From a bacterium (GTDB lineage Bacteria > Electryoneota > B3-LCP), in the NCBI GenBank assembly GCA_018812585.1, contig JAHJDJ010000112.1, forward strand, positions 1 to 32,012: a DNA stretch of 32,012 nucleotides. Direction: 5' to 3'. Positions 1,317-29,326 of this stretch are shown here, one piece after another (position 1 is the stretch's first letter; each line of letters opens with the position of its first letter). Made by a program: the position numbers and the translations under genes. The notes under the pieces were generated by a model. It was not told the origin of the DNA. It searched no databases and saw only the letters and a program-made list of their open reading frames with translations.

Positions 1317-1435
1317 CGGATTGAAATCCGATGCCCAGCTCTCAGGTCAAGTGGCTGAAGCCACTAGTGCCAATACTTGAGACAGTCTCTTCAGAGACTT
1401 TACTTAAAATTTGGGCATCAGAATTCATTCTGGTG
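1317..1435. repeat. Series of four short hairpins with GA/TC loops
   Basis: Four perfect stem-loops follow one another: 1317-1330 (6-bp arms), 1350-1365 (7 bp), 1384-1399 (7 bp) and 1419-1432 (6 bp, extendable to 1416-1435 with a wobble pair). Each has a 2-base loop of GA or TC. The first resembles the element at 329-343. They occupy the spacer (1263-1484) before the SDR gene, and no T-run follows. Confidence 0.65.
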
Positions 1436-1484
1436 TGCTAAGTACTTAATTAATAACATAATACAGATAACCGGGGAAATTAAA

Positions 1485-2228
1485 ATGCACCTGAAAAACA
1501 AAAACGCCATTGTCACCGGTGGATCGCTGGGGATCGGAACTGCGATCAGCTTGGATTTGGCGAAAAACGGCGCCAATGTCGCCTTGAACTACCGCAAACA
1601 TGCTGACGAAGCCGAAGCGATTGCCAAACAGATCAACGAAATGGGCTGCAAAGGCATGGCCGTTCAAGCTGATGTATCCAGCTTTTCAGACGCTCAGGCG
1701 ATGGTGGACAAAGTTGTCGCCGAATGGGGCAGCGTTGACATTCTGGTCTGCAATGCCGGCGTCAACTGGGACGGCGTCATCTGGAAGATGACCGAAGAGC
1801 AGTGGGATACGGTCCTGAACATCGACTTGAAAGGCTACTTCAATTACATTCGCGCATGTGCTCCCCTGATGAGGGAACAAAAATCCGGACGCATAATCAA
1901 TCTTACCTCCATCAACGGCATGCGCGGCAAATTCGGTCAATCGAACTATTCAGCCGCCAAGGCAGGCATCATCGGTCTGACCAAAACCGTCGCCAAGGAG
2001 CTGGGTGGTCGAGGCGTGACTGTCAACGCGGTCGCTCCCGGATTGATCCTGACCGATATGATGGCTGCCATGCCCGAAGAAGCCAAACAGGCATCACAGA
2101 ATGAAACCGTACTGAAGCGCCTCGGTGATCCCGAAGACGTCGCCCATCTGGTCTCATTCCTGGCCAGCGACCTCGCCCGCCACATCACCGGAGAGGTGAT
2201 TAAAGTCGATGGAGGGCAATATATTTAG
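1485..2228 (+). CDS. Short-chain dehydrogenase/reductase, FabG/BzdZ-like
   Basis: A classical SDR of 247 residues, the usual length for the FabG family. It has the cofactor motif TGGSLGIG at residues 11-18, NAG at 90-92, and catalytic Ser142, Tyr155 and Lys159. The C-terminal HITGEVIKVDGG signature is typical of 3-oxoacyl reductases. The open frame extends upstream to 1377, but the ATG at 1485 fits the family N-terminus and follows a purine-rich stretch (GGGGAAAT). As first gene of the benzoyl-CoA block, it probably oxidises a 3-hydroxyacyl-CoA after ring opening, as proposed for BzdZ-type SDRs. A general fatty-acid role cannot be excluded from sequence. Confidence 0.85.
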   Translation: MHLKNKNAIVTGGSLGIGTAISLDLAKNGANVALNYRKHADEAEAIAKQINEMGCKGMAVQADVSSFSDAQAMVDKVVAEWGSVDILVCNAGVNWDGVIWKMTEEQWDTVLNIDLKGYFNYIRACAPLMREQKSGRIINLTSINGMRGKFGQSNYSAAKAGIIGLTKTVAKELGGRGVTVNAVAPGLILTDMMAAMPEEAKQASQNETVLKRLGDPEDVAHLVSFLASDLARHITGEVIKVDGGQYI

Positions 2229-2260
2229 GGATTAGTTAATGGGGATTAGGGGTTAGAAAT
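2226..2260. repeat. Heptad (7-bp) repeat array 1
   Basis: Five degenerate 7-bp units based on TAGGGAT start at the SDR stop codon and run to just before the S23 gene. The reverse complement of this pattern follows the same gene at 2629-2650, so the gene is framed by inverted heptad arrays. Confidence 0.65.
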
Positions 2261-2268
2261 AGAGAGTT

Positions 2269-2646
2269 ATGGTGAAATCTGTAATTCTGAGCTTTCGTGA
2301 TCTACGAATTTGGCGGTTGGGCATAGATATAGTGAAGGAGACGTATCGTATCACTAATTCTTTCCCAAAGAAGGAACCCTATGGTTTATGCAGTCAAATG
2401 CAAAGAGCCTCTGTATCTGTACCATCAAATATCGCTGAGGGTCACATCAGAGCGAGCCGGAAAGAATTCAACCAGTTCTTAAGAATCGCTTTGGGTTCTT
2501 TAGCAGAACTGGAAACCCAGGCAGTGATTTCCCTTGAATTGGGTTATATTCAACAGGAAACCTACAATGATTTTGTTAAGATGTTAAATGATGAATCCAA
2601 GCAAATAAGATCGCTGACGAAAAAATTACTAATCCCTAAACCCTAA
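2269..2646 (+). CDS. Four-helix bundle protein (23S rRNA intervening-sequence/S23 family)
   Basis: This 125-residue protein has the hallmarks of the S23/IVP four-helix-bundle family: an N-terminal FRDLRIWRLGID segment, SQMQRASVSVPSNIAEGH in the middle, and a SLAELETQ helix. The family is also related in fold to the Avd accessory protein of diversity-generating retroelements, but no reverse transcriptase is present here. The biochemical role of stand-alone copies is unknown. The gene separates the SDR from the thiolase and is flanked by inverted heptad arrays; its last codons (LIPKP) are encoded by the downstream array. It looks like an insertion into the catabolic operon. A second member lies at 6057-6410. 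Confidence 0.88.
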   Translation: MVKSVILSFRDLRIWRLGIDIVKETYRITNSFPKKEPYGLCSQMQRASVSVPSNIAEGHIRASRKEFNQFLRIALGSLAELETQAVISLELGYIQQETYNDFVKMLNDESKQIRSLTKKLLIPKP

Positions 2647-2650
2647 CCCC
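2629..2650. repeat. Heptad repeat array 2
   Basis: Three 7-bp units of the CTAANCC type overlap the 3' end of the S23 gene. They are the reverse complement of the pattern in array 1 (2226-2260). Confidence 0.6.
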
Positions 2651-2687
2651 TTGATAATAAAAGAGAAATAATATAGAAGAGGAACTA

Positions 2688-3881
2688 ATGAAACTAACCG
2701 ACATCGTCGCCATATCCGCCTGCAGAACTCCCATGGGAAGTTTCGGGGGGACACTGCGAGATATGAATTCGTATGACATAGGAGCGGTTGCGGTCAAAGC
2801 AGCTGTTGAACGCGCTGGCATTAAACCTGAGTCGGTTGATGACGTGATCCTCGGTTCCTGCCGTCAGGCGGGTAACGGAGTCAATCCTGCCAGAACCGCA
2901 TCGGTGTTTGGCGGTATCCCTAAGGATGTTCCAGCTATCACTCTGAACATGGCTTGCCCGTCAGGAATGCGTGCCATCGCCATGGCTTCACAGCAGATTC
3001 GTTTGGGAGACCATGAAGTGGTCTTGGTCGGAGGTTTCGATTCCATGTCAACGATCCCTTATCTGGTCAAAGGAACTCGCTGGACCGGCTTCAAGATGGG
3101 TGACAAAAAACTCGAAGACGGCTGGTCGGATTCTGTCGACCGTGTCATCATGCAGGGGATGGGTGTTACAGCCGAAAATCTGGTAGAGAAGTACAGCATT
3201 TCACGCCAGGAGATGGACCAATTTGCCGCCGATTCTCACGAAAAGGCCTTTAAAGCATGGGAAAATGGGCTTTTCAATGATGAGGTTGTGCCTGTAACAG
3301 TGCCACCTGCGACTAAAAGAGATGAACCGCAAGAATTTACCAAAGATGAGACCATCCGCTACCCAGTCAACCTCGAAAAGATGGCCAAGCTGCCGCCCGC
3401 CTTTAAAAAAGACGGTTCGGTGACGGCAGGCAACTCCTGTGGTATGTCTGACGGCGCCTGTGCGTTGATCTTCACATCGCGGGAGAAAGCGAAAGCTCTG
3501 GGAGCAACACCACTATTCTCCATTGTATCGTACGGTCAGGCTGCAGTGGACAATGAGACGATGGGTGAAGGTCCCGGAATTTCGATTCCTATGGCTCTGG
3601 AAAATGCGAGGATGACCCTGAATGATATGGACCTGTTTGAAGCCAACGAAGCTTTTGCGGCTCAGATGATCGCAAATCAGAGGGTGCTGAATTGGGATCC
3701 TGCCAAGGTCAACGTCAACGGTGGAGCGATTGCGCTGGGTCATCCGACCGGTATTTCGGGCGCGCGGATCGTGGTTACTCTGTACTACGCCCTGAAAAAT
3801 CACGACAAGGAATTCGGTGCAGCAGGAATCTGCGGTGGTGGTGGCGTTACCATGGCAATGGTCATCAAGCGCGAGAGTTAA
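2688..3881 (+). CDS. Acetyl-CoA acetyltransferase / 3-ketoacyl-CoA thiolase
   Basis: A full-length thiolase of 397 residues. The acyl-accepting cysteine is C90 in NMACPSGMRAI, where many relatives have CGSG. The catalytic His352 lies in GHPTG, and the second cysteine C382 is in GICGGGG. The NEAFAAQ motif is present. A GAGG ribosome binding site lies 7-10 bases before the ATG. It sits 28 bp upstream of the enoyl-CoA hydratase and follows the SDR, so the three together give the hydration, oxidation and thiolysis steps. In this context it most likely cleaves 3-oxopimelyl-CoA or acetoacetyl-CoA after ring opening; the sequence does not fix the substrate. Confidence 0.92.
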   Translation: MKLTDIVAISACRTPMGSFGGTLRDMNSYDIGAVAVKAAVERAGIKPESVDDVILGSCRQAGNGVNPARTASVFGGIPKDVPAITLNMACPSGMRAIAMASQQIRLGDHEVVLVGGFDSMSTIPYLVKGTRWTGFKMGDKKLEDGWSDSVDRVIMQGMGVTAENLVEKYSISRQEMDQFAADSHEKAFKAWENGLFNDEVVPVTVPPATKRDEPQEFTKDETIRYPVNLEKMAKLPPAFKKDGSVTAGNSCGMSDGACALIFTSREKAKALGATPLFSIVSYGQAAVDNETMGEGPGISIPMALENARMTLNDMDLFEANEAFAAQMIANQRVLNWDPAKVNVNGGAIALGHPTGISGARIVVTLYYALKNHDKEFGAAGICGGGGVTMAMVIKRES

Positions 3882-3909
3882 TCCACAAGAAAACAGATGG
3901 GAGAACGTC

Positions 3910-4680
3910 ATGAGTGATTATAAGCTTATCCGAGTAAAAGAATCGCTCGGACGATTCGACATTGTTCTGAATAATCCTCCAGTCAATATCCTGAACATCG
4001 CTATGATGGAGGAGATCTGCGACGCGCTGGAAAAGGCTGCGATGATTCCGGGGTTGAAGGTCGTGGTTTACCGTGCTGAAGGGAAACACTTTTCTGCTGG
4101 AGCGGACGTAGGTGAACACTCCGCTGACCAAGTCGTCGATATGATCGGCGCTTTCGGACGGATGTTCCGCTGCATGTCACGGGTGCCCGCCATCAATGTC
4201 GCTCTGGTGGAGGGATCCGCGTTGGGCGGAGGCTGCGAACTGGCGACTTTCTGTGATATTGTCTTAGCATCAGAGAAGGCGATATTAGGGCAACCGGAAA
4301 TCCTTCTGGGCGTTTTTCCTCCCATTGCCGTAGTGACGTTCCCGATCCTGGTGGGGCGCAACCGGGCAATAGAACTGCTGGTTACCGGGAAGATTATAGC
4401 AGCGGAAGAAGCGGAGAAAATCGGGCTGGTAAACCATGTCTATCCCACCGCGGAATTCGCTGTTAAAACAGATGAACTCATCGGCAGTATCCTGGCGCTA
4501 AGCGCTTCATCTATCGCGTTGACCAAAAAAGTCATAGACCGTGCCATGTACCAGCCGGTGATGGAAGCATTCCGTCATACGGATCGTGAATATATCGAAG
4601 AGCTGATGAAAACCGAAGACGCCAACGAAGGTATCGCGGCATTCCTGGAGAAAAGGAAACCACAGTGGAAAGACCGGTAA
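3910..4680 (+). CDS. dch: Enoyl-CoA hydratase family, probable cyclohexa-1,5-dienecarbonyl-CoA hydratase
   Basis: A 256-residue crotonase-fold protein. The first oxyanion-hole segment is in HFSAGADVGEHSAD and the second in GSALGGGCELATFCD, followed by GQPEILLGVFPPIA. The FSAGADV..H.AD pattern and the GQPEI.LGVF block match my recollection of dienoyl-CoA hydratases of the Dch/BamR/BzdW group better than general crotonases. The expected reaction adds water to cyclohexa-1,5-diene-1-carbonyl-CoA, the product of benzoyl-CoA reductase. The reading frame is open upstream to 3817 inside the thiolase gene, but the ATG at 3910, with GGGAG before it, fits the family start. The benzoyl-CoA reductase genes follow directly. 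Confidence 0.78.
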   Translation: MSDYKLIRVKESLGRFDIVLNNPPVNILNIAMMEEICDALEKAAMIPGLKVVVYRAEGKHFSAGADVGEHSADQVVDMIGAFGRMFRCMSRVPAINVALVEGSALGGGCELATFCDIVLASEKAILGQPEILLGVFPPIAVVTFPILVGRNRAIELLVTGKIIAAEEAEKIGLVNHVYPTAEFAVKTDELIGSILALSASSIALTKKVIDRAMYQPVMEAFRHTDREYIEELMKTEDANEGIAAFLEKRKPQWKDR

Positions 4681-4760
4681 TTGACAAGGTAGCGCGGGAG
4701 CTTGCCCCCGCTGGCGCTTCAAGAAAGAGTCATCAAGGGGTTGTAACCCCTTGCTGATGC
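4681..4760. repeat. Intergenic hairpin pair before bzdN
   Basis: The 176-bp spacer between the hydratase and bzdN contains an imperfect G/C-rich hairpin at 4691-4712 and a perfect one at 4734-4753 (9-bp arms, GT loop). The second hairpin has the same arms as the element at 155-174. No T-run follows, so a dispersed repeat is more likely than a terminator. I see nothing else in the rest of the spacer (4761-4856). Confidence 0.6.
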
Positions 4761-4856
4761 ACCAACCTTGAAGAGGGGAGTATGAGGTGATCAAATCGGT
4801 AGGTACTCTACTAATAATATCGAAATAGGAACATTTGATAAAACAAACAGGCGCAC

Positions 4857-5980
4857 ATGTTCTCACAATTCAAAGAATGGTATGAAAAAGGCACGACTAC
4901 GCCAAAGACTGGAAACAGCGCACAGGCGGGAAAGTCATGGGCTGTTTCTGCTCGTATGTCCCGGAAGAGATTCTGGTTGCAGGTAATATCCTACCAGTCA
5001 GGGTCTTGGGATCCCACGAACCGCAGAACGTCACCGAGCCGTACCTCTTCGGGATGTACTGCCCCTTCTGCCGCGACGTTCTGGCACAAGGACTAAAGGG
5101 AAGGTACGACTATTTAGACGGAATCACGCTGAGCCAATCCTGCCTCCACATCCGGCAATCGTTCATCGCCTGGCGCGAGCATGTCGAAGTTCCCTTCAAC
5201 TATTACATCTATATGCCCAACAAAGTGCAGACCAAAGCCGCAACGCCTTACCTGAAGACCGAGTTTGAGAAGTACAAAGCTCACGTCGAAGAAGTGGTCG
5301 GAAAAGAACTCACAGACGACGATCTCGATCGAGGTATCGCCGCCCTGAACCGCAACCGCGAACTGATGCATAAGGTTTACGAATATCGCAAGGGCGACAC
5401 ACCCATGCTCACTGGTTTGGAAGCGATGTACATGACCGTCAGTGGTATGTGGGTTGATAAAGACGAACATTCCGCTGAAATGGAAAAAGTCCTTGAGCAG
5501 CTTCCTGACAGGCAGATGATCCGCGATACAGGGACTCGTCTGCTTGTTGTAGGCAGTGAAAACGACGATACCGCTTTCATCGATATGGTAGAATCGGTGG
5601 GCGCTACGGTTGTCGTGGACGATCACTGCACTGGGACACGCTGGTTCTGGAACTCTGTCGAAACGGGTGATGACCGCATCAACTCTATCGCTGACCGATA
5701 CATAAAGCGTCCGCCTTGTCCCACCAAGGACTGGGAAGAGCGTTGGCGATTTCCGCACATTCTACAACTATGCAAGGACTTCAATGTTGAGGGCGCCATC
5801 GTCATTCAGCAGAAGTTTTGCGATCCGCACGAATGCGATATCATGCCTCTGCGCAAAACATTTGATGAAGCCAATATCCCCTCGCTTTTCCTTGAATTTG
5901 ACGTCACGGTTCCCATCGGCCAGTTCAAGGTGCGGGTTGAAGCGTTTCTGGAAATGTTTGGTGTGGATGATCTGTTCTAA
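4857..5980 (+). CDS. bzdN: Benzoyl-CoA reductase subunit N/C (HgdB-like), frameshifted near the 5' end
   Basis: Most of this gene (4937-5980) encodes a close relative of BzdN/BcrC, a substrate and iron-sulfur subunit of ATP-dependent benzoyl-CoA reductase. Landmarks are FCSYVPEEIL, GSHEPQNVTEPYLFGMYC, SQSCLHIRQ, DDHCTGTRWFW, QKFCDPHECD and the end FLEFDVTVPIGQFKVRVEAF. The conserved N-terminus is split. From ATG 4857, frame 1 gives MFSQFKEWYEK; the homologous continuation RHDYAKDWKQRTGGK is in the -1 frame from 4889. The break falls at an A5 run (4885-4889), and one extra A would restore a 374-residue protein. In the downstream frame a TGA at 4883 blocks any longer start, and the ATG at 4937 lies inside conserved sequence. 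A sequencing or assembly indel or a recent mutation is likelier than programmed frameshifting. Confidence 0.88.
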
Positions 5981-6014
5981 ACACTGTCAACGGTGAACAG
6001 TAAACTGTAAACAG
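5980..6014. repeat. Heptad repeat array 3
   Basis: Five consecutive 7-bp units of the TRAACWG/CGGTGAA type start at the last base of the bzdN stop codon. Their reverse complement forms array 4 on the other side of the S23 gene. Confidence 0.7.
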
Positions 6015-6056
6015 AAAAAAGCTTGCATTTATTTGTTGGATCTCATCAGGATTGGA

Positions 6057-6410
6057 ATGTACCGAAATTTAGAGGCATGGAAGAAAGCTTACGCGCTAGG
6101 ATTGAAGATCTACAAGCTAACATCAAACTTTCCACGTGAAGAGATGTTTGGTTTGATAAGCCAAATGAGACGATCGGCAACTTCGATTGCAGCAAATATA
6201 GCTGAAGGAAATGCAAGGAAATCACCTAAAGAATTCAGCCGATTTATATCAATTGCGAGAGGATCCGCTGCAGAGCTAGAAACTTGGATTATGTTCTCTA
6301 AGGATCTGGATTACATACCAAATGACGATTATGAAAATCTGTCAACTGATTTGGATAGGCTAAAGGGACTCCTCTATGGTTTACAAAAATCCATAGAGAA
6401 GCATAACTAA
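6057..6410 (+). CDS. Four-helix bundle protein (S23 family), second copy
   Basis: The product is 117 residues when started at ATG 6057. The frame is open from a TTG at 6033, but the family usually begins with a short MYRNLEAWKKAY-type segment. Diagnostic parts are the central SQMRRSATSIAANIAEGN and the SAAELETW helix. It resembles the protein at 2269-2646 in layout but is clearly divergent, so this is not a recent duplication. It lies between the two large subunit genes of benzoyl-CoA reductase and is framed by inverted heptad arrays (5980-6014 and 6416-6450). It is probably an insertion with no catalytic part in the pathway. Confidence 0.85.
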   Translation: MYRNLEAWKKAYALGLKIYKLTSNFPREEMFGLISQMRRSATSIAANIAEGNARKSPKEFSRFISIARGSAAELETWIMFSKDLDYIPNDDYENLSTDLDRLKGLLYGLQKSIEKHN

Positions 6411-6415
6411 TTATT

Positions 6416-6450
6416 TTCACCGTTCACCGTTCACCGTTCACCGTTTACTG
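6416..6450. repeat. Heptad repeat array 4
   Basis: Four exact copies of TTCACCG and a fifth variant unit (TTTACTG) run in perfect 7-bp register, ending 14 bp before the bzdO start. The reverse complement matches the units of array 3. Confidence 0.9.
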
Positions 6451-6464
6451 AATATGGAGTAATC

Positions 6465-7760
6465 ATGCAATACAAATCCGAAGCATTAAAATGCTGGGAT
6501 AAAGCCAAAGAATTACGCGATAAATACTATAGCGATTACGCTACCGCCCACGAACGCGGCGGCATTCGCTGGACGGGTGGAGCCTGGTCGTTTGATGCCA
6601 TCCCTTACGGTCTGGGCGATGATGTCTATCCCTTGACTGGCGAGCCCTACGCCGCCTCGATAGCCTTCATGAAGGACTTCTCTATTGAGTGTCTGGAAGC
6701 GACCGAGGCCAAAGGCTGGGCGCGCGATCTTTGTTCTTATATGCGCAATTACTGGGGATCGATGTATCTGAACAAGTGGGCGTTTGGCGGACCGTTTCCC
6801 AAGGCCGATTTCGCCTGGCAGGATCACATTTGCTGCACTCACGGCAAGTGGGATCAGCATGTTGCAGAGTATGAAAAGATTCCTTATTTCTGCATCGACG
6901 TGTCGGTAGGACCCTACCAAGACATCGATGAACCAAAACTTAAGTACGTCGTCGATCAGATGCATGAAGGGATCGAATTCCTCGAAAAAGCCACCGGAAG
7001 AGAGTACGACGATGAGAAGCTGATCCAGGCGGTCAATAATGAATGCCGCCTGACTTCAACCTGGGCTGAAATTTGTCTGCTGAACAAACACAAACCGGCG
7101 CCGCTGGACGAAAAGAGTATGTACTCGCTTTACGTTTTCGGGACTCTCTCTAAAGCAAAAAAAGAATTCGCCGACTTCTATGAAGAGATACGCGATGAGA
7201 TGAAAGACCGGATCGAGCGCGGTATCGCGGCGCTGCCAGAAGAAAGATGCCGGCTGATCTCAGATACTCAGCCGCCCTGGGCGTTTCTGAAAGTATTCCG
7301 CTATCTGGAGAAATTTGGCGCAGTTTCGGTGGGATCCTTGTATACCTTCGCGCTGGTTGGCATCTGGGAAGATAAGCCTGACGGAACCTGGGGTCCCAGA
7401 ACCACGCCAGCACAGGCAGGGATTAAAATCGAGACCCGCGATCAGGCTTTAAGGATTCTGGCGGACTGGAATCTTTCCAAGCCGGAATGGCAGCATTTCT
7501 ACGATCCCACCATCAAAACCCGCATGATGAAACGTATCTATGATGAGTGGGATCTGGATGGCGTTATGCTGCACCTGAACCGCGGCTGTGAAGGGTTGTC
7601 CTGCGGCATCATGGAAAATCATTATGGTCTGACTCAGGATGATGTTCCGGTGATGAGCTTCGAAGGCAATATGGGCGATTCCCGCGAATTCGACGAAGCC
7701 CGCACCATGGACCGCATCGATTCGTTCATGGAACGGTTAGACCTGAAGAAAATAAGTTAG
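6465..7760 (+). CDS. bzdO: Benzoyl-CoA reductase subunit O/B
   Basis: A 431-residue member of the HgdA/B-like (2-hydroxyacyl-CoA dehydratase) family, matching the BzdO/BcrB subunit in length and in pattern: [56 protein letters not shown], and near the end [16 protein letters not shown]. Cysteines in CCTHGK and GCEGLSCG are candidate ligands of the [4Fe-4S] cluster at the active site formed with BzdN. It probably holds benzoyl-CoA for two-electron ring reduction in the cytoplasm. A GGAG ribosome binding site precedes the ATG directly after heptad array 4. It is separated from bzdN by the S23 gene and is followed by the two ATPase subunits. Confidence 0.93.
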
Positions 7761-7837
7761 GCTCGCAGCACGCAACTCGCAACACGCAACACGCAACACG
7801 AAAAACGCAACTCGCAACTCGCAACTCGCAACTAGGA
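7761..7837. repeat. Heptad repeat array 5 (11 units)
   Basis: Eleven units based on ACTCGCA/ACACGCA in unbroken 7-bp register fill the whole spacer from the bzdO stop codon. The last unit grades into AGGAG, the ribosome binding site of the next gene. This is the longest of the six arrays. Confidence 0.92.
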
Positions 7838-7845
7838 GAAAATAC

Positions 7846-8613
7846 ATGATTACAGCCGGGATTGACATGGGAGCAAGGAGCATCCGGGTACTGATCTTGA
7901 AAGATGGTGAAGTCCTTGCCAGAGGTGAATCCACTGCCGGGTTTGATACTGCCGAATCGGCTGAACTTGCGTTCAACGAAGCATTGGAAAAGGCTGGCAT
8001 CACCAAAGATCAGCTCGATAAGATCGTCGCTACGGGAGCGGGCCGAGAATCAGCTCCACAGGCAACTGATACCGTTACAGACGTCGGCGCAGCCGCCCGG
8101 GGTGCACATGAAGTCGCGCCTCAGGCTCGTACCATCATCGACATCGGCGCTGAAGAGGGACGCGCCATCAAAACTAATGGCAATGGCAAAGTGATGGACT
8201 TTGCAGTCAATGAAAAGTGCGCCGCCGGAGCCGGATCCTTCACTGAGGCTATGTCGAGGGCTTTAGAAGTGGAGCTCGAAGAATTCGGAGCCTTATCACT
8301 TGAATCGACAGAATCCATTCCCATGAACGCGCAGTGCGCCGTTTTTGCAGAATCTGAGGTGGTTTCTCTGCTACATGCAAAGACTCCAAAGCAGGATATC
8401 GCTCGAGCGGTTCACGATGCTATCGCGGACCGCATCGTTTCCATGGTGCGGCGAGTTGGAATTGAGCCTGAAATCGCGCTGATCGGGGCTGTTTCCCGCA
8501 ATCCGGGATTTGTCGATGCGCTGAAGCGCGGCCTGGAAAGAGACGTTATCATTCCTGATGATGCTGAATTCGTGGGAGCGCTTGGTGCGGCGTTAGTGGC
8601 CACGGATGAATGA
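7846..8613 (+). CDS. bzdQ: Benzoyl-CoA reductase ATPase/activator subunit (BzdQ/BcrD-like)
   Basis: A 255-residue ASKHA-fold ATPase of the BadF/BadG/BcrA/BcrD activator family. The phosphate-1 loop is AGIDMGARSIRV at residues 3-14. The cysteine pair that binds the subunit-bridging [4Fe-4S] cluster is in NEKCAAGAG and AQCAVFAESE. The C-terminal EFVGALGAAL is the usual adenosine-motif ending. ATP hydrolysis here drives low-potential electrons to the BzdNO active site. Its short length, with a 289-residue partner next to it, fits the Azoarcus (bzd) architecture, not the bcr/bad type with one large A subunit. The P/Q naming is by length and may be swapped. AGGAG lies 9-13 bases upstream. Confidence 0.87.
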   Translation: MITAGIDMGARSIRVLILKDGEVLARGESTAGFDTAESAELAFNEALEKAGITKDQLDKIVATGAGRESAPQATDTVTDVGAAARGAHEVAPQARTIIDIGAEEGRAIKTNGNGKVMDFAVNEKCAAGAGSFTEAMSRALEVELEEFGALSLESTESIPMNAQCAVFAESEVVSLLHAKTPKQDIARAVHDAIADRIVSMVRRVGIEPEIALIGAVSRNPGFVDALKRGLERDVIIPDDAEFVGALGAALVATDE

Positions 8614-8670
8614 TTTCTTTCGATGGTGAAAATAGTTAATTTTGTAAGTAATCAAAACATGAGAATATAA

Positions 8671-9540
8671 ATGGCAGAAAAAGAATTCTGGCGCTGGAAA
8701 GAGTACAACTGGCATGATGAAAACATCGACTGGCACGGATGTGACGCCATCACCGCGGGTGTGGATGTCGGTTCCGTCAGTTCACAGGCTGTGATCTTAG
8801 TCGATGGAAAACTGTACGCCTTCGCTACCACCAGGACAGGAAGCGATAGTCCCAAGAGTGCGCAGAAAGCTATGGATTGGGCTTTGGAAGACACCGGGAT
8901 GACACTTGACGACATCCACTATAAGGTTGGAACCGGCTACGGACGCGTCAACGTCCCCTTTGCCGATCGCGCCATTACCGAAATCGCCTGCCACGCACGC
9001 GGAGGCAATTTCATGTATGGAAACAGTGTCCGAACGATCCTCGACATGGGTGGGCAGGATTGTAAAGCCATCCACTGCGACGAGCGTGGAAAAGTGACCA
9101 ATTTCCTGATGAATGACAAATGCGCCGCGGGAACAGGACGAGGGATGGAAGTATTTGCCAACCTTTTGTCTGTGCCGATTGAAGATATCGGTGAACTTTC
9201 GTTCCAGGTTGAAAAGGAACCGGAACCGGTTTCCTCCACTTGCGTTGTATTTGCCAAAACCGAAGCATCTGCTCTGCTGCGCAAGGGGTGGCCCAAGAAT
9301 AAAGTCATTGCCGCTTATTGCAACGCGATGGCGCACCGAGTCGTGACTCTGTTGGAACGCATCGGCGTCGAGAAAGATTTTGCCATCACCGGCGGTATCG
9401 GTAAGAATATCGGCGTGGTCAGACGTATCGAAAAAGAGCTGGGCATTACCGCGTTGAAAGCTGACGGCGATACTCAAACTGCTGGAGCATTGGGTGCTGC
9501 TCTTTTCGGAAAAGCACTATTAGAAAAAAGCCGGAAGTAA
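8671..9540 (+). CDS. bzdP: Benzoyl-CoA reductase ATPase/activator subunit (BzdP/BcrA-like)
   Basis: The second ASKHA ATPase, 289 residues. It has about 30 extra residues at the N-terminus (WRWKEYNWHDENIDWHG) before AGVDVGSVSSQAVIL, an extension I associate with BzdP. Cluster ligands are in NDKCAAGTGRG and STCVVFAKTE, and DMGGQDCK is the central nucleotide-binding segment. It should pair with the preceding subunit to form the heterodimeric electron activator of the reductase. The ribosome binding site is weak (GAGAAT). The 57-bp gap to bzdQ holds no array, unlike most spacers here. Confidence 0.88.
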   Translation: MAEKEFWRWKEYNWHDENIDWHGCDAITAGVDVGSVSSQAVILVDGKLYAFATTRTGSDSPKSAQKAMDWALEDTGMTLDDIHYKVGTGYGRVNVPFADRAITEIACHARGGNFMYGNSVRTILDMGGQDCKAIHCDERGKVTNFLMNDKCAAGTGRGMEVFANLLSVPIEDIGELSFQVEKEPEPVSSTCVVFAKTEASALLRKGWPKNKVIAAYCNAMAHRVVTLLERIGVEKDFAITGGIGKNIGVVRRIEKELGITALKADGDTQTAGALGAALFGKALLEKSRK

Positions 9541-9550
9541 TTGTTTTTAC

Positions 9551-9578
9551 TTATCCCAAATCCCTAACAGCTAATCCC
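9551..9578. repeat. Heptad repeat array 6
   Basis: Four 7-bp units of the TAATCCC type precede the ferredoxin gene. The unit resembles array 2, although no S23 gene is adjacent. Confidence 0.55.
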
Positions 9579-9582
9579 TGAT

Positions 9583-9864
9583 ATGAAAGCTAATTACGGC
9601 TACATGGACGGCAGCGGTGAGTACTACATAACCATCGATACCGACCACTGCAACAATTGCAGCCATCATGGTTGCATCACAGGCTGTCCCAAAGGCATGT
9701 TCCAGGTTATTACCGACGATTATGATGACGAAGTCGCCGAGATCAAGGAAGAATTCCGTAAGAAGATCAAGTACGATTGCGCTGACTGCAAACCGACCAC
9801 AGACAGACCTCCTCTTCCCTGTCAGGCAGCGTGCACGCCTGGTGCGATTACGCATTCATGGTAA
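9583..9864 (+). CDS. bzdM: 2[4Fe-4S] ferredoxin, BzdM-like
   Basis: A 93-residue ferredoxin-like protein. The first cluster motif uses C23, C26, C31 and C35 (CNNCSHHGCITGCP). The second is an atypical CADC, ten residues, then CQAACTP near the C-terminus. A long acidic linker (DDYDDEVAEIKEEF) separates the clusters. Unusual spacing is typical of ferredoxins that serve benzoyl-CoA reductases. It should carry electrons from the BzdV-like oxidoreductase to BzdP/Q. It was probably contiguous with bzdV before the REP/transposase block (9885-10723) came between them. No clear Shine-Dalgarno sequence is visible. Confidence 0.82.
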   Translation: MKANYGYMDGSGEYYITIDTDHCNNCSHHGCITGCPKGMFQVITDDYDDEVAEIKEEFRKKIKYDCADCKPTTDRPPLPCQAACTPGAITHSW

Positions 9865-9884
9865 AAACGAGAGTTTGGGTTCAA

Positions 9885-9954
9885 GGGTGGCATGCTTCCG
9901 GTTACACTTTAGTGTGAGTGAAGCATGTGAGTAACACAGCCCTACCTGAAAATA
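9885..9954. repeat. REP-like element, left copy
   Basis: This 70-bp element has a near-identical direct copy at 10584-10653. It contains the inverted repeat CATGCTTC...GAAGCATG around an inner ACACT/AGTGT hairpin. This is the structure expected of REP sequences mobilised by the adjacent transposase. Confidence 0.8.
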
Positions 9955-9969
9955 GCGTGAGCGAAGCAT

Positions 9970-10545
9970 GTGAAAAGACAAAAACATTCTATGAAGCATA
10001 AAAGAGTCAAACACTACAATGACCCGGGACATGCTCATGAATTAACTTTTTCATGTTTTCAAAACCAACCTTTTCTTAACACTGATTTACAATGTGAGTG
10101 GTTACTCGAAGCTGTTGAAAAAGCACGCATAGGACACAGATTTCACATATGGGCGTGGGTATTCATGCCTAACCACGTGCACCTTTTAATTTATCCTACA
10201 AAGCCAGTTTATGATATAGGAAGGATATTGTGGGCAATTAAAGTTCCTGTAGCCACTCGCGCCGTTGCTTATGCTAAGAAAAATGCGCCAGAATATCTTG
10301 AAAGCATGATGGACATTCAGCCCAATGGAAAATGCGCGTATCGGTTCTGGCAGCGTGGTGGGGGATATGATCGTAATATGAAAGAGCCTCAGTCTATAAA
10401 GAATGCGATTGAATATATCCACAATAATCCAGTACGTAGGAAATTTGTGGAGAAGCCTGAAGAATGGCAATGGTCCAGTGCTGGATTCTATGCGGGACGC
10501 GAAAATAGTCTGTTGAGAATAGACACTAAGTTCATTCCATCTTAG
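9970..10545 (+). CDS. REP-associated tyrosine transposase (RAYT, IS200-like Y1 family)
   Basis: A complete HUH/Y1 transposase-like protein of 191 residues from GTG 9970, or 184 from ATG 9991, which fits the family start better. Motifs are HELTFSCFQNQPFL, the metal-binding HUH in MPNHVHLLIYP, and the C-terminal YIHNNPVRR...EWQWSSAGFY block characteristic of RAYTs. It probably nicks and moves the flanking REP-like elements (9885-9954, 10552-10723). The gene lies on the pathway strand between ferredoxin and oxidoreductase, and appears intact. Confidence 0.92.
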   Translation: MKRQKHSMKHKRVKHYNDPGHAHELTFSCFQNQPFLNTDLQCEWLLEAVEKARIGHRFHIWAWVFMPNHVHLLIYPTKPVYDIGRILWAIKVPVATRAVAYAKKNAPEYLESMMDIQPNGKCAYRFWQRGGGYDRNMKEPQSIKNAIEYIHNNPVRRKFVEKPEEWQWSSAGFYAGRENSLLRIDTKFIPS

Positions 10546-10551
10546 CTAGGC

Positions 10552-10723
10552 GGGTGGCATGCTTTTTCTCACACGCTAACTGAGGGTGGCATGCTTCTGG
10601 TTACACTTTAGTGTGAGCGAAGCATGTAAGTATCTCAACCCAACCTGAAAATGACAGGAGCTAAGCAGACATCATCTTGACATGCTTCGTCCCCAATGAA
10701 TTGGAGCCAGAAGCATGCCACCC
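10552..10723. repeat. REP-like cluster, right side of RAYT
   Basis: It contains three related pieces. A partial copy starts at 10552 (GGGTGGCATGCTT). A full direct copy of the left element lies at 10584-10653. An inverted copy of the core lies at 10707-10723 (CCAGAAGCATGCCACCC). The direct plus inverted arrangement is a REPIN-like doublet. Confidence 0.78.
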
Positions 10724-10741
10724 AACCCAGCATAATCGATT

Positions 10742-13258
10742 ATGAACATCCAAATCACCATAGACGGCAAACCACTGACCGTCCCTGAAGGGCTGCCGAT
10801 CCGCAAAGCCGCATTTAAAAATGGGATCTATATTCCCGGTATCTGCGGCCATCCCTATCTGCCCTCAGCGCGCGAAGTGAAATGGTCGCAGCAGGTTTAC
10901 CGCGGCGGTGAGGTCATCGTCGGCGACTACCAGAATGAGACGGCTGGCGATGAAGGTAGCTGCAACCTCTGTCTGGTCGCCATAGAAGGCGTCGAAGATC
11001 TGGTGCGCGCCTGCTCCACGAAAGCATCCGATGGTCTGATCGTTCGCACCACAGGCGTTGATATCGTCAAGGCTCGGCAAAGCGCACTGGCCAAAATACT
11101 GGCTCACCACCCTCATGCCTGCTTGACCTGCGCCCAGCGGGAAGGATGTTCCTTAACTCAATGCTCCTCCAATGTCCCTGAAGACCAACGCTGCTGCATT
11201 CTCCTGAACCGCTGTGAACTGGGCAAAGTGGTCGATTTTATTGGTCTTCCCGACGGCACACCGAAATATCTGCACGAAGGATTCCCGAAGATCACCGATG
11301 ACTTCTTTTTTGACCGTGATTATAATCTCTGCATTGGCTGCCTCCGCTGTGTGCGTATCTGCCGTGATGTGCGTGGAGTCGATGCTCTGGCAGCGACCTG
11401 GAAAGATGGCCGAATCTGGGTAGGAACCTCTAAGCCCGGCTCCCTGCCGGAATCCGACTGCCGCTTCTGCGGAGCCTGCGTCGAGGTCTGCCCGACTGGA
11501 GCGCTCCTCGATAAACCGGATTCCAAACCGGTCCATCCGGGGGATCTGGCTCCCTGCGTCGCCGCATGTCCCGCCGGAATCGATATTCCAGCTTACATCA
11601 GGCATGTTGCTGTCGGTGATTATAAGGGAGCATTGGAAGTCATTCACAATCATGTCCCCTTCGCAGGAATCCTGGGTTATGTCTGCTTCCACCCTTGTGA
11701 GACTGAGTGTAAACGGAATACTCTGGGCTCGAGCGCTGCCATCTGTGCTCTGAAACGATTCGTCTATGAAACTGTCCCCAGGGATGAAATTCCAACCACT
11801 CAAATAACAGATTCCACAGGGAAAAAGGTATCCATCATCGGCGCTGGACCGGCGGGTTTATCGGCCGCATTTTACCTGCGGCGCAAAGGGCACGAAGTCG
11901 ACGTTTATGACTCCTCGCAGGAACCGGGTGGAATGCTGCGCTTTGCCATCCCTGAATACCGCTTGCCGCAAACAGTTCTGGATGACGAGTTGACTACTCT
12001 GACTGATCTGGGCATCGAATTTAAAACTGGGATGACTCTGACGCAAGATTTTAACATTGCTGACCTTTTAAACGACGGAAGCAACGCGGTTTTAGTAACT
12101 ATCGGAGCTTCACTTTCGAGAAAACTCGGGATTCCCGGAGAAGATCTGGGCAATGTTATTCAGACGCTTGACCTGCTGCGCGAAATACGAGAGGGAAGAA
12201 AGCGGGATCTGACCGGAAAAGTCGTCGTTATAGGTGGTGGGAATGTAGCGATCGATGCCGCCATGAGCGCCCGGCGTTTGGGAGCTGAAAACGTCACGAT
12301 GGTCTGTCTCGAACAGCGAGCAGAAATGCCTGCCCATGGTTGGGAAATAGACCAGGCTCTTGCTGAGGGAATTGAAATTCTTCCAGGTTGGGGACCAGTT
12401 GAATTCACAGGTGAAAATGGGAATGTCAAATATCTCCTCTTCCAGAGATGCCTGAAGGTCTTCGACGACCAGGGCAGATTTAATCCTGTCTTTGACGGAT
12501 CAGACACAAAAAGCATCGCAGCAGATTATGCCATTATTGCCATCGGGCAATCAGTTGGGAATACCGGGCTTAAAACCGGCCCTAACGGTCTGATCGACAT
12601 CGACCAAAGCTCATTCGAGACGGACATAAAGGGAGTATTCGCCGCAGGAGATGCCGTTTCCGGTCCGGCTTCAGTCGTCGAAGCGGTGGCGAAGGGAAGA
12701 TCTGCGGCAGATTCCATCGACAAGTTCTTAGGCGGTGACGGTGTGTCAGTCAGCTATCAGGCCGATGATCTGCGAGATGACCCTTTCCTGGGTAACGTCA
12801 GCGAATTCGACACCGGGAAGAGAGAGATCAGACTCTTGCCGATTGCTGAACGTATCAAGGGATTTGACGTCATAGAACAATCACTGCAGGAAAACGAAGC
12901 CCGGATTTTGGCTGCACAATGTCTGCGCTGCAATCTGCGCGCAACAATTTCGCCGGTTATCCTCCCCCCCGATAAGTGGCTGCCCTTGACGACTGAGAAT
13001 GTTGCCCAGATTCCTTCCGCCGAAGGTGTGTATCAACTGGCGAATCAAGCTAAAAAGGTTACCAAGATAGTGGGCACAACCGATGTCAGAGCGGCGCTTG
13101 AAAGCGAAATTGATTCACATGAAGCGGGAACGCTTTTCTCCTGGGAAGAGGAGCGCATGTATTCCAAGCGTGAAAGCGAATTGATCCAGTTGTATCTGCA
13201 GGAATACGGAGAGATGCCCGGCGGGGGTGGTAACGATGACCTGGATGATCTGTTCTAA
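10742..13258 (+). CDS. bzdV: Multidomain iron-sulfur NAD(P)H:ferredoxin oxidoreductase, BzdV-like (NuoG-N/GltD fusion)
   Basis: An 838-residue modular flavoprotein. Residues 1-95 form a [2Fe-2S] domain (C35, C74, C77, C91). Next is a NuoG-type His/Cys cluster motif (HHPHACLTC, C136, C141), then two [4Fe-4S] motifs (CIGCLRCVRIC and CRFCGACVEVC). From about 270 a GltD-type unit begins with PCVAACPAGIDIPAYI and CFHPCETECKR, followed by FAD site GAGPAGLSAAFYLRRKG and NAD(P) site GGGNVAIDAAMSARRLG. A C-terminal extension of about 80 residues (757-838) resembles a degenerate GIY-YIG fold and ends in an acidic DDLF tail. It should pass electrons from NAD(P)H to the BzdM ferredoxin. No Shine-Dalgarno sequence is evident, and the ATG lies in a palindrome (10732-10743). 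Confidence 0.87.
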   Translation: MNIQITIDGKPLTVPEGLPIRKAAFKNGIYIPGICGHPYLPSAREVKWSQQVYRGGEVIVGDYQNETAGDEGSCNLCLVAIEGVEDLVRACSTKASDGLIVRTTGVDIVKARQSALAKILAHHPHACLTCAQREGCSLTQCSSNVPEDQRCCILLNRCELGKVVDFIGLPDGTPKYLHEGFPKITDDFFFDRDYNLCIGCLRCVRICRDVRGVDALAATWKDGRIWVGTSKPGSLPESDCRFCGACVEVCPTGALLDKPDSKPVHPGDLAPCVAACPAGIDIPAYIRHVAVGDYKGALEVIHNHVPFAGILGYVCFHPCETECKRNTLGSSAAICALKRFVYETVPRDEIPTTQITDSTGKKVSIIGAGPAGLSAAFYLRRKGHEVDVYDSSQEPGGMLRFAIPEYRLPQTVLDDELTTLTDLGIEFKTGMTLTQDFNIADLLNDGSNAVLVTIGASLSRKLGIPGEDLGNVIQTLDLLREIREGRKRDLTGKVVVIGGGNVAIDAAMSARRLGAENVTMVCLEQRAEMPAHGWEIDQALAEGIEILPGWGPVEFTGENGNVKYLLFQRCLKVFDDQGRFNPVFDGSDTKSIAADYAIIAIGQSVGNTGLKTGPNGLIDIDQSSFETDIKGVFAAGDAVSGPASVVEAVAKGRSAADSIDKFLGGDGVSVSYQADDLRDDPFLGNVSEFDTGKREIRLLPIAERIKGFDVIEQSLQENEARILAAQCLRCNLRATISPVILPPDKWLPLTTENVAQIPSAEGVYQLANQAKKVTKIVGTTDVRAALESEIDSHEAGTLFSWEEERMYSKRESELIQLYLQEYGEMPGGGGNDDLDDLF

Positions 13259-13264
13259 CCCATC

Positions 13265-13468
13265 ATGACCTGGGAAAAACGAAACACTGTCGGACCCGAC
13301 CGCGTTGATGAGCTTAAAGAATTGTACGAATCTTTAGGCTTTGAAGTCAAGATAGAGCGCTACGAAGGACCCGAAAATGCGGACGAAACCTGCGGATCCT
13401 GTTATGGCAATCCGGCGGGTGAGTATTACATAATTTATACGAGAAAGAATCTTAATACAAATCTCTGA
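13265..13468 (+). CDS. Small cysteine-pair protein, unknown function
   Basis: This 67-residue protein starts 6 bp after the bzdV stop and ends 9 bp before the dehydrogenase start, so it is clearly co-transcribed. It has a VDELKELYESLGFEVKIERY alpha-beta unit, a CGSC pair in DETCGSCYGNPAGEYY, and a short strand at the end. I do not recognise the family. It looks like a small ferredoxin-fold-type domain that could bind a metal or modulate an electron carrier, but this is only a guess from size and context. Confidence 0.72.
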   Translation: MTWEKRNTVGPDRVDELKELYESLGFEVKIERYEGPENADETCGSCYGNPAGEYYIIYTRKNLNTNL

Positions 13469-13477
13469 GGAGACGAT

Positions 13478-14506
13478 ATGAAAGCAGCGCTGTTTTTAGG
13501 TTCAGGCAAACCTCTGGAAATCGCAGAGGTTCCGACTCCCACCCCTGGAAGTGGTGAAATTCTGGTGAAAGTCGCCGCCTGTGGAGTTTGCCACACGGAT
13601 CTCCATTATGTAGATCATAATGTGCCCACATTTAAAGATCCCCCGATGATTCTGGGCCATGAACCGTCCGGGATTATCGCCAGCGTAGGGAAAGACGTAA
13701 AAACCTTCAAAGAGGGCGACCGGGTATTGCTGCCTGCGGTTTTAACCTGCGGGTACTGCCGCAACTGCCGCATCGGCAAGGAGAACATCTGCGACAACAT
13801 GCAAATGTTCGGAAATCACATCGACGGCGCCTATGCGGAGTATGTATTAGCGCCCGCCAAGGACGCCATTCCCATGCCGGATGACGTTCCCCTGGAAGAG
13901 GGATCGATCATTGCAGACGCAATCTCTACCCCTTACCATGCTGTCGTCAACCGGGGGCAGGTCAAAGCTGGAGATAATGTCGTCATTTTTGGTTGCGGCG
14001 GTGTTGGTATCAATACTGTCCAGGTCGCTGCTGCGGTGGGAGCATCCGTAATAGCGGTTGATATCATACCGGAAAAGCTGGAGATGGCCAAAAAACTGGG
14101 AGCGCAGGAGACCATCAATGCCAAAGAAGTCGACCGCATCGATAAAGTCGTCAAGAAGATGACCGGGGGTGGCGCTGACGTGACTTTCGAAGCGGTCGGT
14201 AATCCTAAAACCATTCAGGATGCATTTGCCTGTATCCGCAAAGGTGGCCGCACCGTGCTGATTGGATATACCCACAAAACCGTCGAGCTTCCTGCCTCCA
14301 AGATCATGTTCTTTGAGCAGGAGATTATCGGATCTTTAGGCTGCCGGCCGGTGGACTATCCCAAAATAGTCGAGATGGCGCGTACTGGCAAGATTAAATT
14401 GAAAGAGCTGGTTACCGGGAAGTTCCCCCTGGAAGGAATCAACGATGCTTTCGATTTACTCAGAAACAACGACCCCCATGCGTTGAGGTCGATCGTCATC
14501 CCATAA
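13478..14506 (+). CDS. had: Zinc-dependent alcohol dehydrogenase, probable 6-hydroxycyclohex-1-ene-1-carbonyl-CoA dehydrogenase
   Basis: A medium-chain dehydrogenase of 342 residues. Catalytic zinc ligands are in CGVCHTD and GHEPSG. Structural zinc cysteines are in CGYCRNCRIGKENIC. The NAD motif is GCGGVGINTVQVAAAVGA. The MFGNHIDGAYAEYVLAPAKD block and the benzoyl-CoA reductase neighbourhood point to the Had/BzdX enzyme, which oxidises the hydrated dienoyl-CoA to 6-oxocyclohex-1-ene-1-carbonyl-CoA. A general alcohol dehydrogenase is possible. A strong ribosome binding site (GAGGAG) precedes the ATG. It is the last gene of the block; the hydrolase that would open the ring is not seen. Confidence 0.8.
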   Translation: MKAALFLGSGKPLEIAEVPTPTPGSGEILVKVAACGVCHTDLHYVDHNVPTFKDPPMILGHEPSGIIASVGKDVKTFKEGDRVLLPAVLTCGYCRNCRIGKENICDNMQMFGNHIDGAYAEYVLAPAKDAIPMPDDVPLEEGSIIADAISTPYHAVVNRGQVKAGDNVVIFGCGGVGINTVQVAAAVGASVIAVDIIPEKLEMAKKLGAQETINAKEVDRIDKVVKKMTGGGADVTFEAVGNPKTIQDAFACIRKGGRTVLIGYTHKTVELPASKIMFFEQEIIGSLGCRPVDYPKIVEMARTGKIKLKELVTGKFPLEGINDAFDLLRNNDPHALRSIVIP

Positions 14507-15135: not shown

Positions 15136-16617
15136 ATGAAAGCTTCCAATTTAACAACTTCCATCTCATTCTTCTTGAACGCCCAGCATATCAAAGTTGC
15201 GGTCTCACCTGAAACAACCGCGCTGGGATTGATCCGTAATGAATTAGGCAAACGAGGCACTAAAGAAAGTTGTTCAGAAGGAGATTGTGGGGCATGTACG
15301 ATCGCGGCAGGTGAATTATCCGATGGGAAACTTAACTACCGCGCCATAAACTCCTGTCTCTGGCCTGCGATTCGTCTCCACGGGAAACACATCATAACCA
15401 TCGAAGGACTTAGTCAGGGAGAGGAACTGAACCTGATTCAAGAGCAGATGCTTGAACATCACGCAACGCAATGCGGATACTGCACACCTGGTATCATCAT
15501 GTCGCTATTCTGTCTGTTTACCAGAAAGCAATCCCCCAATAAGCAGGATATCGTGCAAGCCCTTGAGGGGAATCTATGTCGCTGTACGGGATACCAACCA
15601 ATCTTAAGCGCGGCTCAGAGTATAACTGAACTGCTGATAGGGAAAAAGCACACGAATGCAAACCACATATTACCCGGATATGTATCGGAGATCGAAAGTA
15701 AATTAGTCTCGCATTCCGAACCAATTAAAGTAATAGAAACTAACGCCTTTCAAGGTCGAGATATACACGGTTATTATGTACCTCGGACTTTAGAGGAACT
15801 TCATACCTGTATGGACAAGTTCGGTGATCCAGAACGGTACCGTATTGTCAGTGGCGGCACTGATTTAATGGTGGACATCAATATTAATCGAAATTTCCCT
15901 GAAAACATCATCGATATTTCCGAAATCGACGATCTCTCTGCTATCCGAATAAAACAAGATAGCATTTCCATAGGCTCGGGGGTTACACTTACCTCTATTA
16001 TCGAACATCCCGGAATACGAGAAAAACTTCCCATCTTGCGGGAGACATTATTACTGGTCGGCTCAGAACAGATTCGCAACATGGCTACCTTGGCGGGAAA
16101 TATTGCCAATGCTTCCCCCATCGCTGATGGAGTGGTGGCTCTCTTAGGGTTGGATGCAGATGTGACGTTACTCTCTAAGAACGGCAGAAGAAATGTGAAA
16201 TTAAGTGACTTTTTCATCGACTATAAGCAGACCGATTTACAGACCGGTGAGATTTTAGGAGAGATTCACATCCCCATCCAAGAAGGCTTCTTTAATTTTG
16301 AGAAATCTTCCAAACGGCAGGCCGTGGATATTGCCACCGTTAATTCATTCTGTTACTTAAAAGAAGATAGTGGATTGATTTCAGATTGCCGATTTGTTTT
16401 TGGCGGTATGGATAAAACAGTTCGATTGGCAGAATCCTGCCGACCCGTTGTACAGGGAAAGAAACTTGACGATAGATTAATTCTAAAATGCGCTGAGGCG
16501 GCTGTAAAGGAGTTTGAACCCATTTCTGACGTCAGAGGCAGCGCGGATTATCGTCGGCAGTTGGTGGAGAATCACATTGTCAAACATCTGCATAAATTCT
16601 TAAGTATAAACGAATAG
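15136..16617 (+). CDS. Xanthine-dehydrogenase-type [2Fe-2S]/FAD subunit (XdhA-like fusion)
   Basis: A 493-residue fusion of the iron-sulfur and FAD parts of a molybdenum hydroxylase, as in bacterial XdhA. Residues about 10-165 bind two [2Fe-2S] clusters through CSEGDCGACT and CGYCTPG...CRCTGY. From about 205, a CODH-type FAD domain follows with VSGGTDLMVDI and the flavin motif TLAGNIANASPIADG. It passes electrons from the Mo subunit at 16639 to NAD+ or another acceptor. No good Shine-Dalgarno sequence precedes the ATG (GCGAAAATCACAAG region), although the family N-terminus is complete. It is the first gene of the purine operon, behind the promoter candidate. Confidence 0.9.
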   Translation: MKASNLTTSISFFLNAQHIKVAVSPETTALGLIRNELGKRGTKESCSEGDCGACTIAAGELSDGKLNYRAINSCLWPAIRLHGKHIITIEGLSQGEELNLIQEQMLEHHATQCGYCTPGIIMSLFCLFTRKQSPNKQDIVQALEGNLCRCTGYQPILSAAQSITELLIGKKHTNANHILPGYVSEIESKLVSHSEPIKVIETNAFQGRDIHGYYVPRTLEELHTCMDKFGDPERYRIVSGGTDLMVDININRNFPENIIDISEIDDLSAIRIKQDSISIGSGVTLTSIIEHPGIREKLPILRETLLLVGSEQIRNMATLAGNIANASPIADGVVALLGLDADVTLLSKNGRRNVKLSDFFIDYKQTDLQTGEILGEIHIPIQEGFFNFEKSSKRQAVDIATVNSFCYLKEDSGLISDCRFVFGGMDKTVRLAESCRPVVQGKKLDDRLILKCAEAAVKEFEPISDVRGSADYRRQLVENHIVKHLHKFLSINE

Positions 16618-16638
16618 CCCGGATTGTAAAAGGGATCT

Positions 16639-18981: not shown

Positions 18982-18995
18982 ATAAGAGCGATTTA

Positions 18996-21488: not shown

Positions 21489-21503
21489 TAATCAGAAAAC
21501 CCA

Positions 21504-22838: not shown

Positions 22839-22853
22839 CACCCTGGACCTCAC

Positions 22854-24062: not shown

Positions 24063-24080
24063 ATTACAGCGGGTTCGATT

Positions 24081-25307: not shown

Positions 25308-25363
25308 TTTTGCATTTTGAGTGGACGAATTATCGATTCAAAGAATCCGAAAGGGATAAGGCT

Positions 25364-27628: not shown

Positions 27629-27635
27629 CAAAAAG

Positions 27636-28100
27636 ATGATTATTCAGATTAACAGAAACGATATTGCCATTCCGGAGCGTTCAACGGGTATGAATCTATT
27701 AACTTTTCTCCGAGAAGAGTTGAGACTTACCGGCGTAAAAATCGGATGCGGCAAAGGTTTCTGTGGATCGTGTACTATTCTGGTCGATCATAAACCGGCG
27801 AAGGCTTGCCAGAAAACCGTGGTCGATATTGCTGGAAGCAGTGTCTTGACTATTGAAGGAATGGCAAATCCCGATGGAACGTTACATCCTTTACAGCAGG
27901 CATTCATCGATGCAGGCGCTATACAGTGTGGATATTGTACCCCTGGGATGGTGTTGACCGCACATGGATATCTGATGCGAAATCCGAACCCTACACGAGA
28001 GCAAATAAAGAGGGCGATGGCGCCAAACCTCTGCCGTTGTACTGGCTATCAGCAGATCTTTGAGGCTATAGAGACTGCCGCGGAACACTATCATCTATAA
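27636..28100 (+). CDS. [2Fe-2S] subunit of molybdenum hydroxylase
   Basis: A 154-residue iron-sulfur subunit with a plant-type cluster (CGKGFCGSCTILVD...C) and a second all-helical cluster domain (CGYCTPGM...CRCTGYQ). This is the standard small subunit of the xanthine oxidase family. The reading frame is open far upstream, but MIIQINRNDIAIPE at ATG 27636 is the usual beginning, with GGGAG about 12 bases before it; ATG 27618 overlaps the preceding gene and is less likely. It should relay electrons out of the second Mo subunit. Confidence 0.92.
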   Translation: MIIQINRNDIAIPERSTGMNLLTFLREELRLTGVKIGCGKGFCGSCTILVDHKPAKACQKTVVDIAGSSVLTIEGMANPDGTLHPLQQAFIDAGAIQCGYCTPGMVLTAHGYLMRNPNPTREQIKRAMAPNLCRCTGYQQIFEAIETAAEHYHL

Positions 28101-28126
28101 TCCTTTACTATCGGACTTCTGCAATA

Positions 28127-29299: not shown

Positions 29300-29326
29300 C
29301 CATAATTTCCAAAATGAGATACCCCA

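Follow-up and report, generated by a model that had tools for sequence, protein, structure and literature searches.

The bzdN gene in the window, by which is meant the whole stretch of 32,012 nucleotides analysed here, is interrupted by a single frame break, and the deposited gene lacks one base at the codon of a conserved arginine (residue 12) while the rest of the gene is intact. On the sequence comparisons presented below, the balance tips slightly towards this loss being an isolated consensus or assembly error, such as may arise in a metagenome from poor coverage or a mixture of strains, with the living gene probably read in one frame; the missing base would then be present in the organism itself. 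The break most likely represents no new way of reading genes, and neither an error nor a recent deletion would constitute new biology.

An earlier note on this DNA had described bzdN as encoded in two frames joining at 4885-4889, with a TGA at 4883 blocking the downstream frame, and both observations are confirmed in the sequence. The elements concerned are the following.

4857..4886, + strand: opening piece of the bzdN N-terminus, MFSQFKEWYE (ten codons), in the frame of ATG 4857 (ATG 4857-4859).
4857..5096, + strand: zero-frame ORF of 79 codons followed by TAA 5094-5096, with no BzdN likeness past residue 11.
4883..4885, + strand: TGA at the junction, in frame with the main bzdN ORF.
4885..4889, + strand: A5 run at the frame junction, as read in the sequence.
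4892..4936, + strand: remaining piece of the N-terminus, reading HDYAKDWKQRTGGKV in the main-ORF frame and without a start codon.
4937..5980, + strand: main bzdN ORF of 347 aa from the first available start, ATG 4937, covering HGD-D profile positions 1-341 of 342.

The frame of ATG 4857 reads MFSQFKEWYEK and then departs from the family. Across the junction the main-ORF frame reads '...MV*KRHDYAKDWKQRTGGKVMGCFCSYVPEEIL...', so that immediately after the TGA at 4883-4885 it gives KRHDYAKDWKQRTGGKVMGCFC, which continues to the end of the gene. Joined, the two pieces match the N-terminus of an intact relative (MFSQFKEWYDKRHEYARDWKQRTGGKVMGCFC in locus L009). With one base missing at codon 12, no single ORF spans bzdN together with its N-terminal helix. 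The profile search gave a single match to the bzdN model TIGR03190 at 4877-5977 with one internal TGA (486.8 bits; cut-off 453.8), and the ORF from 4937 by itself scored 449.2 bits, slightly below that cut-off. No second bzdN was found by this search in the host assembly (G000), whose completeness is estimated at 93.87%; an intact copy elsewhere was rejected, as the sole other hit, on contig C16, covered profile positions 245-372 and scored 39 bits, short of the cut-off.

With the stop read through, the gene belongs at near full length to the BzdN family of the class I ATP-dependent benzoyl-CoA reductases of the bzd type (TIGR03190; 8s02 chain B, PMC11971306), with which it shares six cluster cysteines and the succession of bzdO and two activator subunits, and from which it differs by one base at codon 12. 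The bzd cluster of the window consists of an SDR, a thiolase, an enoyl-CoA hydratase-like gene, bzdN, bzdO, two BadF/BcrA-type activators and a dehydrogenase, the top model of the last being 6-hydroxycyclohex-1-ene-1-carbonyl-CoA dehydrogenase at a score under the model cut-off. The bzdO and activator genes are intact.

6465..7760, + strand: bzdO, 687 bits against a cut-off of 448.6.
7846..8613, + strand: BadF/BcrA family activator subunit, by profile match.
8671..9540, + strand: bzdQ, the second activator, 447.6 bits against a cut-off of 380.2.

The activator gene at 7846..8613 occupies the slot expected for bzdP, which we take to be its name. The window is one of the 383 contigs of the host assembly, which totals 3.85 Mb. 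Among named genomes, the nearest bzdN genes are in assemblies of candidate division LCP-89 (L009 at 86% identity, L010 at 82%); a search of the available literature combining LCP-89 with benzoyl-CoA found no paper. The family search yielded six genomes, and since each comes from another genus a same-species comparison was impossible; G001, G004 and G005 are among the relatives used here.

Comparison with close relatives, which the earlier note had proposed, found the break of the window in none of the 41 distinct loci inspected, and in 40 of these the N-terminal segment is read in one frame. The count derives from 46 loci with an N-terminal match, corresponding to 40 distinct ones of which 39 are intact, together with G005, which was examined separately; not included were L056, which matches only from residue 34 onward, and L058 to L060, which are distant. 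The bzdN of G005 is itself cut by contig ends, with its start on C6 (L071) and the remainder on C168 (L070). The one exception, L039 from the Desulfobacteraceae assembly CSMAG_2422, has several frame changes, internal stops and an unrecognisable C-terminus (L039:3385-4400); it looks decayed, although poor assembly is possible. It is like the window copy in being unreadable in one frame and unlike it in the number of its lesions, the window copy having one only.

The junction codon specifies an arginine, R12, that is invariant in 16 aligned sequences. Addition of one A had been proposed to restore the reading frame, but this identity of the missing base is not borne out: the arginine is restored by A (AGG) and equally by C (CGG), and the four nearest relatives have C at this codon. 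It is CGG in L009, L010 and L011, and G005 reads GAA AAA CGA, with the same A5 and then a C, while its gene is intact; L031 reads through GAA AAA CGC in frame. The tally of junction codons is approximate, because the codon column was located via the next histidine and this rule misplaced three of the 39 intact rows (L015, L023 and L028), L009-L011 being placed correctly. In the 133 ORFs of the host assembly that have relatives, CGG outnumbers AGG about twofold (351 vs 182), but where AAA precedes they are about equally frequent (8 vs 6). Taken as sequence evidence, these data make a C after the A run more likely to be the missing base than an A. A miscounted homopolymer is therefore possible and not favoured, and if the absent base is a C it would not be the cause at all. 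The evidence from G005 lowered the homopolymer reading and left the odds between error and deletion unchanged.

Apart from the junction, no decay of bzdN is apparent, given that pN is well under pS on both sides of it. Of the N-terminal codons, 25 could be compared to either side of the junction, and these differ from L009 by three non-synonymous and five synonymous changes (pN 0.048, pS 0.411). The main ORF compared with G001 gives pN 0.082 and pS 0.813, in line with its neighbours (0.065 and 0.622 for bzdO, 0.047 and 0.777 for bzdQ). Six cluster cysteines at main-ORF residues 5, 42, 69, 231, 261 and 295 are invariant in 17 sequences and were matched to 8s02_B via the alignment with L009; in the solved enzyme the ligands of the [8Fe-9S] cluster are Cys36/73/100/263/293/327 (PMC11971306). 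The gene thus has a single lesion and no relaxed constraint. An old pseudogene was rejected on the grounds that there is no second lesion and constraint is normal; a pseudogene of very recent origin would be indistinguishable from this. The gene was probably functional until very recently, or may still be.

A frameshift-aware screen placed this break against the rest of the assembly. Proteins of the relatives (64 loci, 1.26 Mb; 63 from G004 and one stretch from G001) were aligned to the window and 60 further loci of the host assembly (762 kb of 3.85 Mb), a frame change being allowed at a cost, which gave 128 protein-gene pairs and 121,731 nt aligned, some places being covered by both relatives. 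One -1 frame change in bzdN improved the score by 42 against G001 and by 35 against G004, and nine further queries that were rescored, including one from the reverse comparison, gained 1 to 7; the bzdN break is well above chance. Events, either a frame change or a stop, occurred in 14 of the 128 pairs, and ten of these were rescored; of the remaining four, two had stops only and two coincide with a rescored event in L178. Aligned the other way round, 107 pairs yielded four with events, three of them stops only, and the lone frame change gained 6. Recovery of simulated one-base deletions was 335/348 overall and 33/45 for those no more than 45 nt from the end of an alignment, as is the case for the bzdN break. 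Among the 128 pairs no further frame change was convincing, and an indel-rich assembly was rejected because this alignment leaves bzdN as the sole convincing case. An earlier BLAST-only test had found no break, yet it recovered only 130 of 223 simulated deletions and missed bzdN too. The non-redundant BLAST-covered sequence of the host assembly amounts to 114,074 nt and holds 307 runs of at least five identical bases; with this as the tested length, zero events and a recall of 0.96, the rate of frame changes elsewhere is at most about 1 per 36 kb at 95%. The sampled part of the assembly has no general homopolymer problem and is not error-prone. A search of the host assembly for ABC-transporter domains gave 25 matches with no internal stops, which is too little sequence for an error rate.

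Since the gene is otherwise healthy, the likeliest cause is either an assembly error confined to this place or an ordinary mutation that arose very recently. Of the three options that the earlier note had offered, error and recent mutation both stay viable, although the homopolymer form of the error is weakened, and slippage is unsupported. A survey of frame transitions in prokaryotes holds that an isolated frameshift confirmed by BLASTp should be expected to reflect a sequencing error and not a genuine indel, and adds that singletons confirmed by homologues may also be indel mutations of pseudogenes (PMC3711429). The case in the window resembles those singletons in having one frame change, homologue support on both sides and no sharing among the inspected relatives, and no point of difference from them was found (PMC3711429).

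Against an error, the sampled assembly is clean elsewhere, and a run of five A residues is not difficult for short reads. It is a serious possibility, if one with less than an even chance, that the deletion is genuine, having arisen very recently in the strain or being the majority allele of the population, and that it inactivates bzdN, in which case the cells would be unable to reduce the ring until the gene was restored by reversion or recombination. The cleanness of the sampled assembly speaks for such a deletion, as does the decayed look of bzdN in L039, with the proviso about the assembly of that locus, and loss of a catabolic operon need not kill the cell. Against it stand the intact remainder of the bzd cluster, the single lesion and the normal constraint on either side of the junction; owing to the last two, a genuine deletion would have to be very recent.

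It is improbable that the gene is used as deposited, with translation from ATG 4937 giving a shortened yet working BzdN. Downstream of the TGA no start is available before this ATG, which is preceded by a candidate ribosome-binding signal.

4924..4929, + strand: AGGCGG, Shine-Dalgarno-like, seven bases before ATG 4937, of moderate energy (-6.9 kcal/mol).

The corresponding energy at ATG 4857 is -2.5, and the shortened product would retain HGD-D positions 1-341 of 342 and all six cysteines. However, the signal means little, given that 21% of the 644 + strand ATGs of the window have an energy as good and that at the equivalent internal codon four of six intact relatives are stronger than the window. 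The site at ATG 4857 is weak (80% of ATGs are as good), as are those of several other genes of the window. Furthermore, an internal start would remove 27 residues, eight of them at positions invariant in 16 aligned sequences (W8, R12, H13, Y15, A16, W19, G25 and V27). In the predicted structure of the L009 protein this part contains helices 3-10 and 12-23, in a block with pLDDT 93 to 95, and the first strand (26-30) begins in it, so that its first two residues would be removed. According to the crystal-structure paper, the N-terminal helix of BzdNO belongs to a bundle with three middle-domain helices, which lends the protein stability and contributes to the CoA channel (PMC11971306). For the shortened protein of the window, the model has a mean pLDDT of 67.9 against 79.7 for L009, with a poorly defined N-terminal domain; this comparison is weak and a hint only, because the two models differ in sequence and alignment besides length, and the alignments are shallow.

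It is very improbable that full-length BzdN is made by recoding, be it a -1 frameshift of the ribosome or slippage during transcription at the A run. The direction of recoding suits the break (-1, or one extra A), the A run lies at the junction and the codons on either side are conserved. Nevertheless, the zero-frame codons are TAT GAA AAA GGC, in which the X_XXZ_ZZN heptamer is absent in phase and the in-phase motif is the weak tetramer A_AAA alone (PMC4066793). Within the 12 bases at 4870-4881, read by eye under the spacing rule, there is no SD-like stimulator of the published list (PMC4066793), and folding downstream is ordinary (z -1.78; equalled or bettered by 11 of 200 shuffles), so neither an upstream SD-like element nor a stable downstream structure was found to stimulate a programmed -1 frameshift. 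In addition, the break is shared by no inspected relative, 40 of 41 being intact and the other being the multiply broken L039, and L031 and G005 read GAA AAA followed by C in frame. As for slippage, one genome survey finds selection against it evident at nine-base runs in a large share of genomes and allows shorter runs in some bacteria (PMC1088944); the A5 run falls short of that nine-base length. Runs of at least five A residues number 77 on the + strand of the window. Corrective slippage in reduced endosymbionts relies on long A runs (PMC5009743). It is scarcely credible that low-level corrective frameshifting or slippage at this short run keeps benzoyl-CoA reductase very low or switchable. 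With no in-phase heptamer, stimulator or conservation, recoding was rejected as unsupported by the sequence data at hand.

The significance of an error or recent deletion in bzdN lies mainly in annotation. An automatic caller might record the gene from 4937 without its N-terminal helix, or as a pseudogene, and a lineage related to LCP-89 could then be deemed unable to reduce benzoyl-CoA despite an otherwise intact cluster. If the deletion is true, it would mean that one population has newly lost the anaerobic degradation of aromatic compounds.

The layout of the locus is largely shared with the relatives. Synteny with G004 extends over 1377-14506 except for the ORF 9970-10545, and with G001 it runs from bzdN onward, G001 carrying extra sequence after bzdO; the gap between bzdO and the activator is about 2.8 kb in G001 (L066:3374-6217) and 85 bases in the window. 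Two genes for four-helix-bundle proteins (TIGR02436, 23S_rRNA_IVP) lie inside the bzd cluster, at 2269-2646 and 6033-6410, the latter separating bzdN from bzdO, and the arrangement of bzdN, four-helix gene and bzdO recurs in G001, G004 and G005. Homologues of both are confined to the bzd locus in the 1.24 Mb of G004 examined, and one further homologue, in L184, occurs in the 762 kb of the host assembly examined. In L012, L014, L017 and L043, bzdN is preceded by similar genes at a distance of about 1 to 2.5 kb, and a connection between the four-helix gene and the reductase may be suspected.

A palindrome was also noted upstream of bzdN, for which no link to the frame break is claimed.

4734..4753, strand not assigned: palindrome CAAGGGGTTGTAACCCCTTG, between the hydratase gene and bzdN, repeated elsewhere in the host assembly.

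Its consensus is CAAGGGGTT[AG][CT]AACCCCTTG, with copies in the window at 155-174 and 4734-4753. There are 12 copies in 762 kb of the host assembly, a count biased by the inclusion of contigs C149, C246 and C252 after they had matched this region, against none in 1.24 Mb of G004. The contig starts with a 118-base direct repeat (1-118 and 381-498, 95% identical, 380 apart), and downstream of the bzd cluster a purine-type cluster at 15136-30778 encodes xanthine dehydrogenase subunits, an SsnA-like aminohydrolase and a YgeW carbamoyltransferase.
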